Of a DNA stretch of 64,000 nt, positions 4,944 through 14,256 are shown in pieces. Position 1 is the stretch's first letter. Every line of letters starts with the position of its first letter. Origin of the DNA: a candidate division KSB1 bacterium (GTDB lineage Bacteria > Electryoneota > RPQS01). Location of the stretch: the NCBI GenBank assembly GCA_016214895.1, contig JACRMR010000020.1, positions 291,812 to 355,811 of the forward strand, written 5' to 3'. A model generated the notes under the pieces. The model saw only the letters and a program-made list of their open reading frames with translations, was not told the DNA's origin and made no database searches. A program made the translations under genes and the position numbers.

Positions 4944-7900
4944 TTACCCCCGAATCGCGATATTGACCTGAATGCCGAACTCAAAGGTGCGCGTCTTCGT
5001 ATCCGCGACCACGTTCTTCGTCTGCTGCAAGGTCAGATACGCGCGTCCCTGCACCGTGCTCGAAAACGTGTACGTCAGATTCGGTTGTATCGAGTACTGG
5101 CTCGTCTGCGACGTCACGGCGAACTTGTCGGAGGTCGAACTCTGCGTCTGCTCAACCTTCGAAGTCTGATAGTCCAGCGTTAACGACACCGTGGTTTGAT
5201 TTTGCAGCTTCATCGACTTTAACCAGAGCACCGGAATCCGGAATCCCGTCCGCACGGTATAGCCGACTTGGCCGTTGACCTGCGAGGTCGTCTCGCGTCC
5301 TTTGGATCGCTGATAGACGTTATCGGTAAATTTCTGCGTCTTGTTGTACCGGACCTGCGAGTCGAACCCGCCCTTGAACGTGAACGTGGCACCCGCCAGC
5401 GGCGCCCACTGCCGCTGATAATCCCGCGACTGCACGTTCGACGCCGTCCCGCTCCAGTTCTCCCGCACGGAATTCGCCAGGGCCGAGGTCAACGACACCG
5501 ATTCCGCGAACCGGTCGATAAACGAAATCTTCTCCAGTCCCTGCCAATCCAGCGTGACTTCGGGGAACGGGAACGCGCTGCGCGCCTGCTTGCTGTTCAG
5601 CCAGAACTTCTTCTCCTCGGTGGACCCCGTCTTTGTATTGCCAATCGTCTCGGCGACCCGCTTTGAGTAGTTGAACTGTGTGCGAATCCCGCTCGTAATC
5701 CGGATTCCCGTTCGCGCCTGGTACGTCTGATCCAACTGTCGCGACTCGGGAGTCGTGAACCCGCCCACCGTATCGAGTCCGGTCTTCTGCGAGAGCCCGA
5801 TCTGATACAGTAGATCGGCCTCCGCGCCGTGAATGCCGGCCTGCGAGTGCCGCGCACTATTATCGTAACTGAGCGTCACCGGATCGAGCACCATGATCGC
5901 CCAGCGCAGCGGCGTGACGACGGTCGCGAGCCGCTTGCCCAGCGACGGTCCCGGTTCCCGGCGCGGCGTCGGCGGTCCCAGCGAGTCGGGCCTCATCGCC
6001 AGCGAATCCACGACCTGCCCCAGACTGTCCGCTCCGCCCGGCGCGACCTCGCGCTCCTGCTCTTCGCGACGGTGCCGGTTCGGACCATGTTCGCCGCTTT
6101 CACCGGGACCTTTCGGCACCCGGTCTTCAATCTCCCCGGGGCCCGGCTGATCACCGTCGGGCCGCGCACCTCGGCCCCGCTCTTGACCGGGCAATGGCGG
6201 TCCGCCCCGCTCGTTTCGTTGTTCTCCTTCGCCTTCCCGACCTCGACCACCATTTCGCCCGCCGCGTTCGTTGCGCCCGCCGCTTCGTCCGCCGCCCCCG
6301 CCCCCCAAAATCGCGCGGAAATCGAGCTGCAGGTCTCCGCCGACCGTCCGCGAATTGCCGACCCCCTGCTGATTCTCCCGTGAGAAGTCACGGTTGTTCC
6401 AGGTGTACTGAGCGGTGTAGGTAAACGTCGGTTTCAGCCAGCCAAAGAATTGCGGTCGATAGCCGGTCGTCACCTGCTGTTGAATATCCGAAGCTCGCCC
6501 GAAATTGTAATTGAAGAGGTCCGGCCACCCGCCCTTCAGCCGGCGATTGACCGTATCCACCGAGTCCACGACATACTCGAAAGCGCCGCGCACCGTTCGC
6601 GAATAATCAACCGTGATCGGATCGAAGAAGGCGAATCCCGTCGTGATGCCGCGGCTGGTCGTGAATTGTTTCGGCGCCAGCGTCTGCCGGTAAATGTACA
6701 CGGAATCGGCGATCGTTCTGTACGTCGGCCGCGACTGCTGGAACCCGTCCGACTTCGTCGCCGCGGCGGTCACCTGCAGTTTCGTGGGCTTCCAGTAGAT
6801 CTTCGGACTTCCCACCAGCGCCAGAATCGGCACGCGCTTGATCCAGAACAACGGCGCCACCCCGCGTCCCTTCGCCGTCGGAAAATTATACCCCGCCGTC
6901 GCGTTCTCGCGCGTCTGCCGGTTGATTTCGGTATTGAAATCCGACCGCTTGTCGAGCGAGTAGTCATAGCCGACCGAGAGTTTCTCAATCGACCACCGCA
7001 CCAGCGGATTCTTCGAGTTCCCCGTCTTCGAGAATCGCGCGGTCGCGCTCGTCGTGGTTGAATTGGTCTTCACGCTGTCCGGCACCTGCGCGGCCTCGAT
7101 CCGCGTATCCGTTCCCGGAATATAGCGCGGCGTGGACACGGCCTCGTTGTAACCCACCGTCAGCGGCAACTGGAAGCCCCACCGTTCCACCCCCAGCTTC
7201 TGCAAATTGACGGTCGCGTTCCCGCGCCACGTCACGGACCCTTCCTGCGTCCCGATGCGCGTGTTCACGTTATGGAAGTCCGCGTCTCGTTGACTGAACG
7301 ATCCCTGCAGCGACACGAAGTCCGCCAGCCGCAGCGACGCGCTCACGTCCGCCGCCGTCCCGGACTCCTTGAAAATATCCGAGACTCTCAGCTCATCCAC
7401 CCAGATCTCGTCCGCCTCGGCAAAATCGCTTTTGTCCCGGAGCCGCACCCCCAGCGCGATGAATCGTACCCGCGACAGGGTCGGATTGCCCTGAATCACG
7501 ACGCTGTCGCCGACCCCCATCGTGCTGTCGTGATAGGCATAGCGGCCGCTGACCGTCACATTTTGCAGCGTGTCGAAGGCCGCGACCTGCCGCAGCGCCA
7601 CCAGCCGCGACAGTTCGTTCATCGCCACGTCGATGTTGTTCTCCGGATCCCAGTCCGGCTTCACATTCAGCACGATCTCGTAGTAATCGCGCTCAATCTG
7701 GTTGAAGTTCAAACCGAGTCGCAACGCCAGCTGATAGCGCCGCGGATCGAACGCCGAGGTATTGATCCCGCCGCCGTGCACGAACATCTTCAACCGCTTA
7801 TATTCGAGCAGGTTCAGGTCCTGTCCCAAGTTCTTGGCGATGAAGAATTCGCGGCCGCCCAGCGAGTCCGTCTGGTTGGAACCGCGATCGCCCAGTCGAT

Positions 7901-10900
7901 TGATCTTCAACACCAACGACTGCTCGCGCTGGACGAGCTTCGTGATCGGATCCTCCGCGCCCGACACCCCGGGCGGGCTGATGTAGCCCGGATTCTCGTG
8001 CGTGTTGATCACCGCCGCCGAGACCCGCTGTTCCGTGGAGTCCAACCGTCCGCTCGGCGGCAACCACTCGTTCGAGACGATGTCCATCTGCACCATCTCG
8101 ATTTCGGTCTTGCGTGTGCAGCCGGTCAGGTAAACCCGCGCCCAGCGAATGTTCGTCAGGTCCGGCCCGCCGACCTGATTGAGCGGCTCGTTCAGCGGAA
8201 TCCGGAATAGCCGCCACTTGTTGTCGAAATTCCCGCCCACAATATGCGGATCGGATTCGGACAACGTCAATTGATACGAGAAGTAGCTGTTCGCCTGATC
8301 CAGATTGTCGTTGTTGTTCAGGTCCTCGGTATCGGGATACGTTCCGCTCTCATCGCCCTTGTTATTCTCCGTGCCGTTGACCTGACCGAATTCATCGCTG
8401 TTCGACTCGTGCGCCCAGTCGTCCCACGACGGAATCGGCGGGTTATCCAATCCGTTCCAATAGGCGGAATCCTGCGGATCCGCCCCGAACTTCCCATCGA
8501 TGCCGGTCTGCTCGTTATCGGAGCAGATTCCGTTGCCGTACTCGCGCTGCGGACTCACCGCGCTCTGTCCCTCGAGCGGCTGGTCCTCGGTGTCCATGCT
8601 GTCGTTCGGCAAGGCGTCTTCCGAAACCACGCCGAGGTCGCACACCAGTCGCGCATCCGGCTGCTCTTCCCCGCGCGGCAACCGCACCCAGAATTCCAGA
8701 TACTGCGCCCGCGACTGATCGGAGTAGCCTTCGCCGAGATACCGCATCACGCCCGCCCACTGTCGCTGTTTCTCCGCGTCGCTGATCGCCTCGTCGGGCG
8801 TAATCTCCATCAGCAGCGATTGCAGCGTGTTCGCCACGTTCGAATTCACCTGCCGGTCCGGGAACACCTCCTGCACCGGAACCTGATTGTCCGTGTTCGG
8901 ATTCCACCAGCGCAGCCGCGCCCGGTTGTGATCGATCAACGAGTCGCTCGGAATCGAGGATATCGTCCACTGCTTCCGCTGCAATCCCAGCGGCGCCGAT
9001 CGTCGTGAGCCTTCAAAATCGTCGAGGAACGCCAATCCGTTGTAGTCGCCCGTCCGCGGATTCTCCAGCGCGTTCGGGTTGGGGAACACCTGCGCGACTT
9101 CGGCGTCGATCTGGAACTCCGACGCGGCGTCCGTCCGCACGAACGGCAGCGCATCGACCGCGTGCGTCAGAAACTTCGGTTTGAACTTCAAGCTCGTATT
9201 CAAGTCGTAGAGCGTGTTCCGCAGCGGTTCGCTGCCGATTCGCACGCGCTTGTCCAACGTCTTCTCGTCTAACTTGAGCACCATCCCGCCGACATAGCTG
9301 TCCGGCCAGAGTTCATATTCCGCGCGCGCGCCGAGCAGCGTCTTCTTGTCCAACTGGAAGAACTGCCCCGATTCAAACGTGATCTGCAAGTCCGCGCCTT
9401 GTACCTTCGCGGCCTCGTTCAGTATCTTCAGCTCGCCGGATGTATAATCAATCGTGTAATCCGATCCGCGCTTGAGCTGCTGACCGTTCAGCACGACCTC
9501 TTCGGAATTCTCCAAGACCAGCGCGCCCAGCTGGAACACCGACGTCGAGCCTTTGTACTCCGGTGAAAGTTGCCAGTTGCTTCCCCTTGACTGATTCGTG
9601 TTGGGCAGCTCCGTGTACAAGTAGGGCGCCGCGAAGCCCCCCGAGTCCTCATTTGCCACTTCCAAATTGGCCAGACTCCAATTCAGCGGCTGGTCGTTTT
9701 CTTCCCAATCGCTCACCGTATCAAACGGTTGCAGCGTAATAAAATGCAACTCGCCGTAGTTCCAGTCGATCAGGGCGCGAATATCGTCCACCGCGCCGTC
9801 GGCCGGGCCGCCGTTGGCACCCTGCGTGTCGAACTGGAAGTAACTCAGGTAGCTCGTGCTCGTCCCGGGCACGGCCGTCTCTTCTTGCCCCGACGAAGCC
9901 GAACGCCGCGCGATCTTCAGCTTAAATGTCGAGCGGTCGATGTTACTCGCACCCAGATTGTACACATGCCGCCACATCAGCGGCCAGGTGAGACTCGTCG
10001 GAAACAGGCCCTCGGGCTTGATCAGGATTAGTTTTAGTGTGCTGTCGATGCTGGCCCGCATCGTACCGAATACCGTCCTCACTGTGTCCGTCGGTCCGGT
10101 TCCGCGCTGCCGGAACGCGACGGCGATCGCCTGCCCATCCTGCACCGGGGTCTTTAGCCGAATGTAGCCGAGCTGGAGCTGCACATCATACTGCGTGTTG
10201 GGCGTGAGCCGAAGCCACTGTCCCTGCATGTGGTTCTGGGGTTCTCTGCTCTTCAGAACCAGCCACTGATCTTCCGGCAGATCCAGCGAATCCATTTCTT
10301 CGATGATCGACGCGCGCCCCTGAATCACCTGCTCCTGGATATTCCCTACCCGCTGCACATAGACTTCGATTTCGGACAGTTCAAATTCCGGCTGCGCAAG
10401 CGCCCGATGTTCCCGCCCGAGGTACCGTGTGTAGTTGTCGCGGAAGCTCAGCCACTCATGCGTCACTTCGCCCAGCTCGTTCCGCGTCTGGCCCTGTGTG
10501 CCCGTGATGAAGAAGTAGGTATTCTTCAGGAAGTCACGCTCGTCGAATGGCCGCACATTCTGCTGAATATCCCGCGGCGACAGCCGGTTCTTCTGCCCGC
10601 GCTCCAGTGACGCGATACCCGTCATTTTCAGCGCGCCCATTTTCAACTCGGTCTTGAGTCCGAACAACCCCGTATTGCGCCCTGAAAACGTCGCCAACCG
10701 CGTTCCCAGATTCAGCGCGACATTTCCGGCCTCGACCTTCTGCACGATCTCGTCTTCTTCACCGGTATAGGTCAGCTTGAGCGAGTTCTGAAAATCGAAC
10801 AATCGCTCCGAATCCTGATCCACCCGCACCTCAACCTTCTGACCGATCTTGCCGGTGATGTTGAACTGCTGGATCATGTCGATGTGGAAGCTCGTATTCG

Positions 10901-11468
10901 TGTTGCGCTGATTGGCCGCCTGCAACTCATCGAACTTCTGCCGCCGGATATTGCCGTTGATCGTAATCTGCCCCTGCACGCGCACGCCGACGTTGTCCCC
11001 GCCGAAGAGTCGGCGGAACACTTTCGACTTCATCTTGAATGGCACGTCGATCGCGATCCCCTCGCCGGTCCGGCGCTGGGAGGCCTTCTTGTAGGCCCGC
11101 ACGGTCTCGTCCTTGCGCTGCTTCCGCAGATCGGCCGCGATTCTCGCCTGCTTGTACTCGTCGTAGGTCAGGACCGTCGGCTGCACCAGCGCCACTGATC
11201 CCGACTTGAGGCTGAACGTAACGATCGAATAAGAGCTGTCGATCACGACCGTCGATTTGATCTGGTCGCTCGCCACGTCGAAGATCGGCCGCTCGCCAAA
11301 AAACGAAATTCCCCGCACGGGTCGCGCCAGCAGCACATTGCTGCTGCGCCCCAGCAGGGAACGCTGCAAACCAATCCCCGCCTGAGCCGGCAAGCACATC
11401 GCCGCCAGTCCGACAAGGACCCAGAAATACATGAATCGAAGACTAAGACCGGTCAAGCCTAAGGGCAT
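4944..11468 (-). CDS. sprA: Type IX secretion system outer membrane translocon SprA (Sov)
   Basis: At 2174 residues this is the size of SprA, the giant 36-strand barrel that moves folded cargo across the outer membrane. A signal peptide ends near AQA (residue 30). Family landmarks include the early plug-like segment with VRVQGQITINGN, the stretch GKIGQKVEVRVDQDSERLF, TFSGRNTGLFG, the NPN...PRTGDYNGLAFLDDFEGS segment in the middle and VWVDELRVSD-like DEIWVDELRVSD further on. The protein ends in beta strands (FEFGIQVNIAIRG). Residues about 1718-1840 form a Gly/Arg/Glu/Pro-rich low-complexity insertion starting with six glycines, which is not expected in the barrel core. It heads an operon that ends in a PorV-like gene, and PorV is a known SprA partner. 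No clear promoter was found in the 450 bp upstream. Confidence 0.93.
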   Translation of the reverse strand: MPLGLTGLSLRFMYFWVLVGLAAMCLPAQAGIGLQRSLLGRSSNVLLARPVRGISFFGERPIFDVASDQIKSTVVIDSSYSIVTFSLKSGSVALVQPTVLTYDEYKQARIAADLRKQRKDETVRAYKKASQRRTGEGIAIDVPFKMKSKVFRRLFGGDNVGVRVQGQITINGNIRRQKFDELQAANQRNTNTSFHIDMIQQFNITGKIGQKVEVRVDQDSERLFDFQNSLKLTYTGEEDEIVQKVEAGNVALNLGTRLATFSGRNTGLFGLKTELKMGALKMTGIASLERGQKNRLSPRDIQQNVRPFDERDFLKNTYFFITGTQGQTRNELGEVTHEWLSFRDNYTRYLGREHRALAQPEFELSEIEVYVQRVGNIQEQVIQGRASIIEEMDSLDLPEDQWLVLKSREPQNHMQGQWLRLTPNTQYDVQLQLGYIRLKTPVQDGQAIAVAFRQRGTGPTDTVRTVFGTMRASIDSTLKLILIKPEGLFPTSLTWPLMWRHVYNLGASNIDRSTFKLKIARRSASSGQEETAVPGTSTSYLSYFQFDTQGANGGPADGAVDDIRALIDWNYGELHFITLQPFDTVSDWEENDQPLNWSLANLEVANEDSGGFAAPYLYTELPNTNQSRGSNWQLSPEYKGSTSVFQLGALVLENSEEVVLNGQQLKRGSDYTIDYTSGELKILNEAAKVQGADLQITFESGQFFQLDKKTLLGARAEYELWPDSYVGGMVLKLDEKTLDKRVRIGSEPLRNTLYDLNTSLKFKPKFLTHAVDALPFVRTDAASEFQIDAEVAQVFPNPNALENPRTGDYNGLAFLDDFEGSRRSAPLGLQRKQWTISSIPSDSLIDHNRARLRWWNPNTDNQVPVQEVFPDRQVNSNVANTLQSLLMEITPDEAISDAEKQRQWAGVMRYLGEGYSDQSRAQYLEFWVRLPRGEEQPDARLVCDLGVVSEDALPNDSMDTEDQPLEGQSAVSPQREYGNGICSDNEQTGIDGKFGADPQDSAYWNGLDNPPIPSWDDWAHESNSDEFGQVNGTENNKGDESGTYPDTEDLNNNDNLDQANSYFSYQLTLSESDPHIVGGNFDNKWRLFRIPLNEPLNQVGGPDLTNIRWARVYLTGCTRKTEIEMVQMDIVSNEWLPPSGRLDSTEQRVSAAVINTHENPGYISPPGVSGAEDPITKLVQREQSLVLKINRLGDRGSNQTDSLGGREFFIAKNLGQDLNLLEYKRLKMFVHGGGINTSAFDPRRYQLALRLGLNFNQIERDYYEIVLNVKPDWDPENNIDVAMNELSRLVALRQVAAFDTLQNVTVSGRYAYHDSTMGVGDSVVIQGNPTLSRVRFIALGVRLRDKSDFAEADEIWVDELRVSDIFKESGTAADVSASLRLADFVSLQGSFSQRDADFHNVNTRIGTQEGSVTWRGNATVNLQKLGVERWGFQLPLTVGYNEAVSTPRYIPGTDTRIEAAQVPDSVKTNSTTTSATARFSKTGNSKNPLVRWSIEKLSVGYDYSLDKRSDFNTEINRQTRENATAGYNFPTAKGRGVAPLFWIKRVPILALVGSPKIYWKPTKLQVTAAATKSDGFQQSRPTYRTIADSVYIYRQTLAPKQFTTSRGITTGFAFFDPITVDYSRTVRGAFEYVVDSVDTVNRRLKGGWPDLFNYNFGRASDIQQQVTTGYRPQFFGWLKPTFTYTAQYTWNNRDFSRENQQGVGNSRTVGGDLQLDFRAILGGGGGGRSGGRNERGGRNGGRGREGEGEQRNERGGPPLPGQERGRGARPDGDQPGPGEIEDRVPKGPGESGEHGPNRHRREEQEREVAPGGADSLGQVVDSLAMRPDSLGPPTPRREPGPSLGKRLATVVTPLRWAIMVLDPVTLSYDNSARHSQAGIHGAEADLLYQIGLSQKTGLDTVGGFTTPESRQLDQTYQARTGIRITSGIRTQFNYSKRVAETIGNTKTGSTEEKKFWLNSKQARSAFPFPEVTLDWQGLEKISFIDRFAESVSLTSALANSVRENWSGTASNVQSRDYQRQWAPLAGATFTFKGGFDSQVRYNKTQKFTDNVYQRSKGRETTSQVNGQVGYTVRTGFRIPVLWLKSMKLQNQTTVSLTLDYQTSKVEQTQSSTSDKFAVTSQTSQYSIQPNLTYTFSSTVQGRAYLTLQQTKNVVADTKTRTFEFGIQVNIAIRG

Positions 11469-11699
11469 GGAAATAACGGAACTCCCGAAATCGCGTGGAC
11501 GCTGGTGAAGTTCTCTTCAACCTGATGAATGGGCTTCACGTTGGCGGGCAGGAATCTCCGCGATTCCCGGCTCCGCCGCGACAAACGGACTAACCGTCAG
11601 ATATGGTCCACGCCCTCCGCAATATTTGCCCGGTTTTCCACACCAAGATCTAAGCTTTTCTCAGTTTAGCAATTTCCGTTCACAATAGCAAGGCAAAAT

Positions 11700-11853
11700 C
11701 CCGACCACCCCGAGGGTCGGCCCTCCCCCCACTCCCTGCGGCGGCAAGTGTTCCCTGCGGCGGCACGCCTTCCCTGCGGCGGCACGTCTCTTGAGACTTG
11801 ACGTGCCCCGCTCTTCCCCGCCGAGCCGGGCGTCCCCGCCCGGCCGGAATCGG
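11700..11853 (+). repeat. Hairpin repeat cluster between sprA and the MATE leader
   Basis: Three partial copies of CCCTGCGGCGGCA run into one complete GCGGCGGCACGT...ACGTGCCCCGCTC hairpin (11775-11812). A CCGAG-CCGGGC-GTCCCC-GCCCGG-CCGGAATCGG hairpin follows at 11821-11853. The rest of 11469-11918 shows nothing else that I can name apart from a G-run at 11887-11906. Confidence 0.8.
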
Positions 11854-11918
11854 AGCGTCAGCACTCCCCCACACGCTGCAGGGACCCCGGGGGGATCAGG
11901 GGGGGCGCTTCCCCGCCC

Positions 11919-11947
11919 TTGACAACCTGCCCGCCGTTTCGTATCTT
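11919..11947 (+). promoter_or_regulatory. Sigma70-type promoter for the MATE leader transcript
   Basis: A perfect -35 TTGACA (11919-11924), a 17-bp spacer and a -10 TATCTT (11942-11947) predict a start near 11954. A second TTGACA begins at 11946 but has no good -10. This promoter would produce a leader of about 360 nt before the MATE start codon. Confidence 0.75.
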
Positions 11948-12007
11948 GACACTTCACATACGTCGGAATCGCACCGGTTTCACTCTCACCAATCGCCACG
12001 GCTTTCG

Positions 12008-12124
12008 ATGAGCTACCAGCTTCCCACAATCAGTTTCGCCCCGGCCCGCACAACATCGGCCTACGATGAGGCTGCCGCTGCGCCGTCCGTGGTCCTCAAT
12101 GGCGAGGGAAACCGCTGGTCTTAA
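12008..12124 (+). CDS. 38-codon putative leader peptide of the MATE attenuator
   Basis: An ATG at 12008 opens a 38-codon frame ending in N-R-W-S and TAA at 12122-12124. The last codons (12111-12119, ACCGCTGGT) are exactly the segment that can pair with the 3' arm of the intrinsic terminator further down, so a ribosome reaching the stop codon would cover the antiterminator strand. No Shine-Dalgarno is visible in front of the ATG. The peptide has two Tyr, many Ala and Pro and one Trp, and no obvious amino-acid run. A longer frame from 11798 exists but would start upstream of the promoter. Translation is an inference from the RNA layout, not from homology. Confidence 0.45.
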   Translation: MSYQLPTISFAPARTTSAYDEAAAAPSVVLNGEGNRWS

Positions 12125-12185
12125 GTCTCTGACTGTTTTGAGCTTAGGTTTAGTCGGCCCATCGCCAACCAGCGGTGGGCTTTTT
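12100..12185 (+). terminator. Intrinsic terminator with two competing antiterminator stems
   Basis: GCCCATCGC (12157-12165), loop CAACCA and GCGGTGGGC (12172-12180) form a 9-bp hairpin with one G-U pair, followed by TTTTT (12181-12185). ACCGCTGGT (12111-12119) is perfectly complementary to ACCAGCGGT (12168-12176), which includes most of the terminator's 3' arm. TGGCGA (12100-12105) is complementary to TCGCCA (12162-12167), which includes part of the 5' arm. Either pairing prevents terminator formation. This is the layout of a transcription attenuator. Confidence 0.7.
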
Positions 12186-12204
12186 CGATTGCGCCAGGTC
12201 TGGC

Positions 12205-12270
12205 TCCCCCCACATCCCGTGGGGGGCCGGGGGGGAAACAGACCCGCCCGGATTCACGTTTCACGTTTTG
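12205..12270 (+). repeat. C-run/G-run hairpin plus TTCACGT 7-mers ahead of the MATE gene
   Basis: CCCCCCACATCCCGTGGGGGG with a second G-run forms the hairpin at 12206-12235; TTCACGTTTCACGTTTTG follows at 12253-12270, 47 bp before the MATE ATG. Confidence 0.75.
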
Positions 12271-12316
12271 CAACTCAATTCCGGTCCCCGCTGTCCAATC
12301 ATGACCGGATCATACC

Positions 12317-13735
12317 ATGCTTCGTACTCTCCCACCCCCTAAAGTCGCCGAGATTATTCACGGGCCTGCAGCCCACGGCACTCACCGGCCCTTCGCCCGT
12401 GAGCTGAAACAGCAGATCAGGAAAGAGGTCCTGTCGATGGGCCTGCCGTCGCTGACCGGCTTCCTCGTGATCTCCTTTAATGAACTGGTCAGCATGTTCT
12501 GGCTGGGTCGGATCGGCACGGCTCCGGTTGCCGCCGTCACGATGAGCGCGACGTTGATCTGGCTCTGCTCTTTCGCCAACGTGGTCATTGGGGCGGGCAG
12601 CGTAGCCGCGATCAGCCGTCGCTTCGGCGAGCAGGACATGGGTCGCACGGAACTCGCGATCAAGGCGACCTTCTATCTCAAGTTCGCGGCGGGCACGCTC
12701 TTCGGTCTGCTCGGAATCCTGGTCATGGACTGGGGCTTCACGTTTCTGGGCGCCGCGCCGGACGTGCATGCGCTGTCGCTGGAATACTCCGTCGTGCAGT
12801 TCGTCACGATGGGCTTCGCGATGACCAGCTTTTCGGTGTACACCGCGTTGCGTTCGATCGGTAAACCGCGGGAAGCGATGGTGCTGCAAGCCCTCGGCAC
12901 GGGGTTCAACCTCGTGCTCGATCCGCTCTTGATCTTCGGCGTCGGTCCCTTTCCCGAACTCGGCGTCCTTGGCGCATCCATCGCGACGTCAGGTTCCTAC
13001 ATCGTGGTGGTGGTCGCCGGCTGTGCGCTCTTGGCCGGGCCGCGTTCTCCGGTCAGAGTCCGTTGGTTCAGCCGCAGCCTTCCGAAGTGGTCGGAAATGT
13101 GGCCGGTGATCCGGATCGGCGCTCCGGCCGGATTGAACCAATTGAGCTTTGCCCTGGCGATGTCGTTCGCGGTAAAGCTCATTGCACACCACGGCACCGA
13201 TGTGGTGGCAATCTACGGCATGGGTCAGAAGGCCATCCACTTTGGCGTGATGATGGTCGTCGGCCTCGGTCTTGGAACGGGCGCACTGATCGGTCAGTTC
13301 CTGGGCTCCCGTGCGTTGGACAAGGCCTGGGTCGCGGGCGTGTTGTCCACCCGACTTGCCTTCTGGATGATGGTCGGCTATGGCAGCCTGATCTTTGTCG
13401 GCGCGCCGTTCATTGTACACTTCTTCTTCAAAGACGTGACCCTCTATCCGTTGGCGACCAATCTCTTGCGGATCATGGCCCTCAGCCTGCCCTTGATCGG
13501 CATACACATCGGAGCGGAGACTGCTTTTGAAGGAGCGGGCCAGAATACTCCACCCATGATCCTCTCCATCATCCACTCTTGGGTGATGGTGATTCCCTTC
13601 ATGTGGCTGCTCGGGAACTTCCTCGGCTTTGGTCCTTATGGGCTGTTGTGGGGCTGGACCGCATCTCATGCCGCCGGCGGCGCCGCCGCGCTCTGGCTCT
13701 TCCGTCGCGGCACCTGGCTGAAACACGAAGTCTGA
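12317..13735 (+). CDS. MATE family Na+ or H+ coupled drug/metabolite efflux pump
   Basis: 472 residues, standard for MATE transporters, with twelve predicted membrane segments arranged as two six-helix halves. The N-terminal half has the family region SLTGFLVISFNELVSMFWLG, with the usual L.N..D.....G pattern slightly changed, and VGAGSVAAISRRFGE-like IGAGSVAAISRRFGEQD. The second half repeats it around GLGLGTGALIGQFLGS, and IGAETAFEGAGQ is the typical late motif. About 45 cytoplasmic residues precede helix 1. The gene lies 130 bp downstream of an attenuator-like leader, which fits inducible control as known for antibiotic-responsive efflux genes. Its substrate cannot be told from sequence. 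Start at 12317 has no Shine-Dalgarno. Confidence 0.9.
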   Translation: MLRTLPPPKVAEIIHGPAAHGTHRPFARELKQQIRKEVLSMGLPSLTGFLVISFNELVSMFWLGRIGTAPVAAVTMSATLIWLCSFANVVIGAGSVAAISRRFGEQDMGRTELAIKATFYLKFAAGTLFGLLGILVMDWGFTFLGAAPDVHALSLEYSVVQFVTMGFAMTSFSVYTALRSIGKPREAMVLQALGTGFNLVLDPLLIFGVGPFPELGVLGASIATSGSYIVVVVAGCALLAGPRSPVRVRWFSRSLPKWSEMWPVIRIGAPAGLNQLSFALAMSFAVKLIAHHGTDVVAIYGMGQKAIHFGVMMVVGLGLGTGALIGQFLGSRALDKAWVAGVLSTRLAFWMMVGYGSLIFVGAPFIVHFFFKDVTLYPLATNLLRIMALSLPLIGIHIGAETAFEGAGQNTPPMILSIIHSWVMVIPFMWLLGNFLGFGPYGLLWGWTASHAAGGAAALWLFRRGTWLKHEV

Positions 13736-13738
13736 TCT

Positions 13739-14256
13739 CCCCCCCCAAATTCCGATTTGGGGGGGCAAGGGGGGTCTCGGTGAATCGGCTCCCCCCCCAC
13801 AGCCAGTGGGGGGCCGGGGGGGTGCGCGTCTTCGCGCATCTTCCGCCACGCCCCCCCCCCCAAATTCCGATTTGGGGGGGCAGGGGGGGTCTCGGTGAGC
13901 TTCGGCTCCCCCCCCACATCCAGTGGGGGGCCGGGGGGGTGCGCGTCTTCGCGCATCTTCCGCCACGACTCCCCCCAAATTCCGATTTGGGGGGGCAGGG
14001 GGGGTCTCGGTGAGCTTCGGCCCTCCCCCCACATCCAGTGGGGGGCCGGGGGGGTGCGCGTCTTCGCGCATCTTCCGCCACGAGCGCATCTTCCGCCACG
14101 ACTCCCCCCCAAATTCCGATTCAGGGGGCCGGGGGGGTCTCGGTGAGCTTCGGCCCTCCCCCCACAGCCAGTGGGGGGGCCGGGGGGGTGCGCGTCTTCG
14201 CGCATCTTCCGCCACGACTCCCCCCCAAATTCCGATTTGGGGGGGCAGGGGGGTTC
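13739..14256 (+). repeat. Tandem array of composite C-run/G-run hairpins, period about 116 bp
   Basis: About 4.4 copies begin near 13740, 13853, 13971, 14103 and 14219. Each holds a CCCCCCAAATTCCGATTTGGGGGG hairpin split over two stems, a G-run and TCTCGGTGAGCTTCGG. A second CCCCCCACATCCAGTGGGGGG hairpin with a G-run follows, and then the small stem GTGCGCGTCTTCGCGCATC. Copy three has an extra 18-bp internal duplication (GAGCGCATCTTCCGCCAC). Copy five breaks off into TTCATCC/CTCGTCC 7-mers. This fills most of the 720-bp gap between the MATE gene and the first lipoprotein. Confidence 0.9.

Follow-up and report, generated by a model that had tools for sequence, protein, structure and literature searches.

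A ribosome-mediated transcription attenuator very probably controls a MATE efflux gene in the window, by which we mean the whole 64,000-nucleotide stretch of DNA analysed here, drawn from a genome of 3.2 Mb in 26 contigs. The gene is preceded by a short ORF and an intrinsic terminator, and the end of the ORF can pair with the terminator 5' arm in a structure that excludes the terminator. Across eight genomes this arrangement is conserved, and a ribosome near the end of the ORF is predicted to mask the antiterminator strand. The leader is a further case of a known kind of switch; its new points are the link to a MATE pump and the combination of a free peptide with a fixed geometry.

Anatomy and conservation of the leader

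The promoter, a 38-codon ORF, the terminator and the MATE gene follow one another on the plus strand, as the first-pass annotation had read them from the window, and eight genomes have this layout. A pattern match places a sigma-70-like promoter, TTGACA-17-TATCTT, at 11919-11947 (TTGACA 11919-11924, TATCTT 11942-11947); it is the one promoter-like site in 11500-12600, where 0.2 would be expected. The leader ORF (12008-12124) ends in TAA, encodes MSYQLPTISFAPARTTSAYDEAAAAPSVVLNGEGNRWS and has counterparts at the same place in relatives. Taken alone it is weak evidence (shuffle p ~0.12), so a comparative test was needed. Its last codons contain the antiterminator 5' strand TGGCGAGGG (12100-12108), part of a conserved GGCGnTGGGAG motif, whose GGC codon begins 21 nt ahead of the stop. 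Folding and pairing tests identify the partner of this strand as CCCATCGCCA (12158-12167), the 5' arm and loop start of the terminator. The intrinsic terminator (12156-12185) consists of a 10-bp stem at 12156-12181 and a T-run to 12185, with a fold of -18.6 kcal/mol. The MATE efflux transporter gene (12317-13735) encodes 472 aa, matches Pfam MatE at 1.1e-33 and scores above the cut-off of TIGR00797; the nearest solved structures of its product are PfMATE and BH2163.

A DNA similarity search of 61 genomes with the leader gave chance matches only, so that its conservation is visible only once the leaders are traced from the MATE gene. In four relatives (G009, G001, G008 and G003) the DNA ahead of the MATE orthologue has the same layout as in the window. 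A first covariance model (R1), made from five stretches running from the antiterminator strand to the terminator and blind to gene position, was then searched against whole genomes. It recovered its five members and three new leaders, in G006 (E 3.7e-10), G004 (2.5e-6) and G010 (2.9e-6), all directly upstream of the first gene in a tandem MATE pair (L104, L105 and L103, respectively). The second gene of these pairs is slightly closer to the window MATE by identity, and the first and second genes fall into separate clades. One other R1 match, in G016 (E 2e-4), was set aside as it is without the leader layout. With a second model (R2) and 291 genomes, the strong matches were the eight MATE leaders and no others; four weak matches (E 2e-5 to 3e-4) came from genomes outside the phylum, fall within or next to unrelated genes and were taken as chance.

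The leader is thus present in eight of the ten MATE-bearing genomes of the family. It was looked for and not found upstream of the MATE genes of two family members (G002 and G007), in G011 from a neighbouring family of the same order, and ahead of 11 MATE homologues from other phyla. On the MATE tree it is spread over the two deep clades of the family, a distribution that takes at least three changes, such as a single gain with two losses. The MATE-protein relatives include RPQS01000046.1, 'candidate division KSB1 bacterium metabat2.380', and RPQS01 is a class name in the candidate phylum Electryoneota/AABM5-125-24 (PMC10439189). The host group of the leader is probably the candidate phylum Electryoneota.

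The eight leaders share a strict geometry. Each has at the same place a promoter of the TTGAC[AT]-17-TATNNT type with a 17-nt spacer and an ATG ORF of 30, 36, 38, 39 or 42 codons. The G-rich strand is present in all eight, as GGCGnTGGGAG in most, and is matched by a complementary terminator 5' arm, CCCAnCGC. The ORF and the position of its stop are both conserved: the distance from the start of the strand to the stop is 21 nt in five genomes and 24 nt, one codon more, in the three of g5 and g7, and the stop lies 51-59 nt ahead of the T-run. Four leaders end the ORF with TAA, three with TGA and one with TAG, which means that the stop as such is kept and not its sequence. Letter shuffles put a stop at that place with a probability of ~0.03-0.06 per genome. 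With lineages treated as independent, the stop offset in the four lineages beyond the founder has p ~5e-6, and an ORF ending at that place in the eight genomes has a Fisher p of ~1e-4. The openness of the ORF discriminates weakly; in G006 and G010 the two remaining frames are likewise open.

The peptide itself drifts. Across the eight ORFs its sequence is not conserved and no amino acid is enriched, a conserved stall-peptide sequence of the erm type is absent, and even within genus g7, counting the stop, 18 of the 20 codon differences are non-synonymous. Upstream of the motif, the promoter is the sole conserved sequence in the eight leaders. Conservation in relatives, which had been proposed as a check, thus holds for the ORF, the stop position and the shorter of the two pairings described below, and fails for the peptide and the longer pairing.

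Competing structures and the ribosome

Two alternative antiterminator pairings, of 9 bp and 6 bp, had been described in the first-pass annotation, and both are present in the window sequence. The 9-bp pairing joins ACCGCTGGT (12111-12119, plus strand) to ACCAGCGGT (12168-12176) in the terminator loop and 3' arm. It belongs to this genome only, since it was not found in the other seven leaders, and the minimum-energy antiterminator computed for the window leader does not contain it. For these two reasons it is not counted in the mechanism, and its role is doubtful. The 6-bp pairing, TGGCGA (12100-12105) with TCGCCA (12162-12167), is the conserved one and is really longer: past a single bulged base, GGG (12106-12108) pairs with CCC (12158-12160), giving nine pairs. 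The GGCGAGGG strand is the partner of the terminator arm in the antiterminator.

The pairing between the ORF end and the terminator arm exceeds that of shuffled ends, with single p values of 0.005-0.13 and a Fisher p of ~4e-6 when lineages are treated as independent. Its register is also specific, with 83% of alignment cells paired in the antiterminator helix vs 26-47% when the strands are slid by 1-3 columns. No pair of this helix changed on both sides in the eight-row alignment, which is explained by the near invariance of both strands. In the terminator helix, two pairs of a five-row alignment changed on both sides, not beyond shuffles. The predicted antiterminators fold at -21 to -30 kcal/mol vs -15 to -26 kcal/mol for the terminators; the antiterminator is as stable as the terminator or more stable in most leaders, and the terminator is more stable in G001 and G003. 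In addition, the 5' strand of the antiterminator is transcribed first. A 5' protector pairing between the start region and the G-rich strand lies above shuffles by ~0.4-1.5 sd in all eight leaders, and was rejected as too weak.

We simulated the ribosome by cutting the RNA before the terminator 3' arm, removing the part under or behind the ribosome and folding the remainder. The folds contain 6-8 antiterminator pairs when no ribosome is present and, for the most part, when it is at an early position in the ORF. With the ribosome within about the last eight codons, they contain essentially none. One early position in G009 is an exception, with only 1.3 antiterminator pairs. Seven of the eight leaders are predicted to form the antiterminator when untranslated; in G003 hardly any of its pairs appear (0.3) and an early ribosome would be required, and our modeling suggests that the state without translation may differ between species. 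A ribosome at a stop codon reaches ~15-18 nt upstream of it, and one paused at the leader stop would thereby cover most of the G-rich strand. Sequence and folding predictions together give two mutually exclusive structures, with the antiterminator strand in the part of the ORF that a ribosome covers. The claim of the first-pass annotation that a strand in the last ORF codons places termination under ribosome control is supported by this architecture, found in eight of the ten MATE-bearing genomes of the family.

According to the mechanism that we propose, RNA polymerase would start near 11954 and make a leader carrying the short ORF, which would be translated in the cell. A ribosome moving at normal speed, once within the last ~8 codons or paused at the stop, would cover the G-rich strand (12100-12108). 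The two arms of the terminator would then be free to pair, and the transcript would end at ~12185. If the ribosome instead stalls, slows or falls off before reaching these codons, the G-rich strand would take the terminator 5' arm. No terminator would form once that arm is captured, and the MATE gene would be transcribed. Because a late ribosome abolishes the predicted antiterminator, normal translation should terminate, and upstream stalling or loss should read through. The peptide would be free to drift as long as an ORF with its stop in place and both competing pairings are maintained. A conserved geometry with a drifting peptide fits a ribosome-masked antitermination that would sense the progress of the ribosome rather than the sequence of the peptide.

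Signal and known attenuators

The natural inducers of the leader may be ribosome-targeting antibiotics. We infer this from the controlled gene, which encodes an exporter of the PfMATE/BH2163 branch, and from the known systems bmrCD and armZ/MexXY. The drift of the peptide gives no support to a drug-specific stall peptide such as those of erm leaders, and a general sensor of ribosome progress fits better. It is possible, if on the unlikely side, that the same attenuator senses general translation capacity, such as growth state, tRNA charging or ribosome supply, rather than drugs, with the MATE protein exporting more of a metabolite or toxin whenever ribosomes slow. This would agree with geometry alone being kept and with peptides that have neither a common sequence nor an enriched or repeated amino acid, so that no stall site is visible. 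However, in the genomes searched every leader precedes a gene for a multidrug-type exporter (MATE) and none precedes another gene, and the known efflux and resistance attenuators respond to ribosome-targeting antibiotics (PMC4191407, PMC12057347). An attenuator of the trp/his/leu type, tuned to one amino acid, would account for the order of the parts and for the GC-rich terminator, typical of that type, and the window's ORF does have one Trp codon close to its stop. It is nevertheless very improbable, as the eight ORFs have no run of a single codon and no common amino acid, and the downstream gene is not biosynthetic.

Two further readings would leave the ORF without a role. We regard a ligand-binding riboswitch or a protein-dependent antiterminator, with the ORF as a by-product, as improbable. 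Two mutually exclusive structures do precede a transporter gene, and the nearly invariant letters of the motif resemble a binding site, but an Rfam search at gathering and permissive thresholds gave no match, no sequence upstream of the motif is conserved except the promoter, and the stop, written with any of the three stop codons, keeps a distance of 21 or 24 nt to the motif. It is scarcely credible that an unrelated small gene or transcript simply ends at a plain terminator, with the ORF and the pairings coincidental. Long open frames do arise by chance in GC-rich DNA, as the shuffle p of 0.12 for the window ORF illustrates, but the whole arrangement is common to eight genomes and the position-blind model matches upstream of MATE only.

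The proposed ribosome-mediated attenuator has known relatives in its working logic. In ermK, a Gram-positive inducible resistance attenuator, the choice between terminator and antiterminator depends on where the ribosome stands on the leader ORF, and several attenuators of the ermK, vmlR, msrD and hflXr type use drug-specific stall peptides. Our leader differs from this type in that its peptide is not conserved and in its target gene and phylum. For vmlR, msrD and hflXr of Gram-positive bacteria, the published reports describe the same choice of terminator or antiterminator by ribosome position on a leader ORF as we propose here (PMC9226507, PMC10314930, PMC6310831). With the trp/leu-type attenuators the leader shares an ORF, 2:3 vs 3:4 pairings and read-through on early stalling; unlike them, it has no regulatory codon run and controls an exporter.

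The closest parallels concern multidrug efflux. In Bacillus subtilis, lincomycin lifts termination in front of bmrCD through the translated bmrB leader (PMC4191407). There, as here, a short ORF (translated in BmrB), competing stem-loops and an intrinsic terminator precede a multidrug exporter gene (PMC4191407). Ribosome-targeting drugs raise read-through at bmrCD, and the window leader would be inducible in a similar way. The BmrB terminator lies inside a 53-codon ORF, whereas here the T-run is 51-59 nt past the stop, and the bmrCD pump is of the ABC rather than the MATE type. A BmrB start-codon mutant shows low expression and is not inducible, so translation is needed for expression (PMC4191407); unlike this, our folds predict for most species that a leader without translation favours read-through. 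In Pseudomonas aeruginosa, PA5471.1 is proposed to mediate an attenuation at armZ/MexXY that antibiotics lift (PMC12057347). Like the window leader, it is a Gram-negative leader ORF with a proposed attenuation lifted by ribosome-targeting antibiotics, leading to more efflux (PMC12057347), but it controls the anti-repressor gene armZ (PA5471), which raises MexXY (RND), and not the pump gene itself. The likeness to BmrB and PA5471.1, both from other phyla, is one of working logic, and we do not claim common descent. In the open papers, to which our check was limited, we found no case of a MATE pump under a ribosome-controlled attenuator, nor any such attenuator from this candidate phylum.

If our reading is correct, drug- or stress-inducible efflux attenuation extends to an uncultured FCB lineage, and ribosome inhibitors should induce these MATE pumps. 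The eight leaders, with their fixed geometry and free peptide, also form a natural data set on how far sensing depends on ribosome position alone. A bolder proposal, for which we see an even balance of chances, is that the family carries an undescribed RNA switch that is specific to MATE pumps and reads ribosome position alone, and that the family of G028 keeps the geometry in a rewritten sequence. Such a switch, if real, would couple a general sensor of translation stress to a single exporter family in an uncultured phylum. G028, from another family of the same phylum, has an analogous shorter leader (L020 1165-1360) with an ORF of 18 codons and different letters; GGCACCGGA pairs against TCCGGCGCC with one central mismatch, and the stop lies 18 nt past the strand. 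It is a single case, and may reflect convergence.

Flanking DNA and another early terminator

In G022, from another family, a strong terminator stands upstream of a MATE gene almost directly after a consensus promoter (L019 1320-1390) and leaves no room for an ORF; this is possibly a different kind of early-termination control. In the window, the MATE unit is divergent from a gene for a SprA-type motility/secretion protein of 2174 aa (4944-11468, minus strand). A G/C-run repeat of ~31 bp (CTCCCCCCACATCCnGTGGGGGGCCGGGGGGG type) is dispersed in the genome and makes up most of the 57 short genome matches found besides the query itself. It occurs in the window at 12205-12240 and 13740-14200. One copy lies between the terminator and the MATE start, a distance of 126 nt here vs 51-69 nt in the first four relatives, and a tandem block of the repeat lies 3' of the MATE gene.
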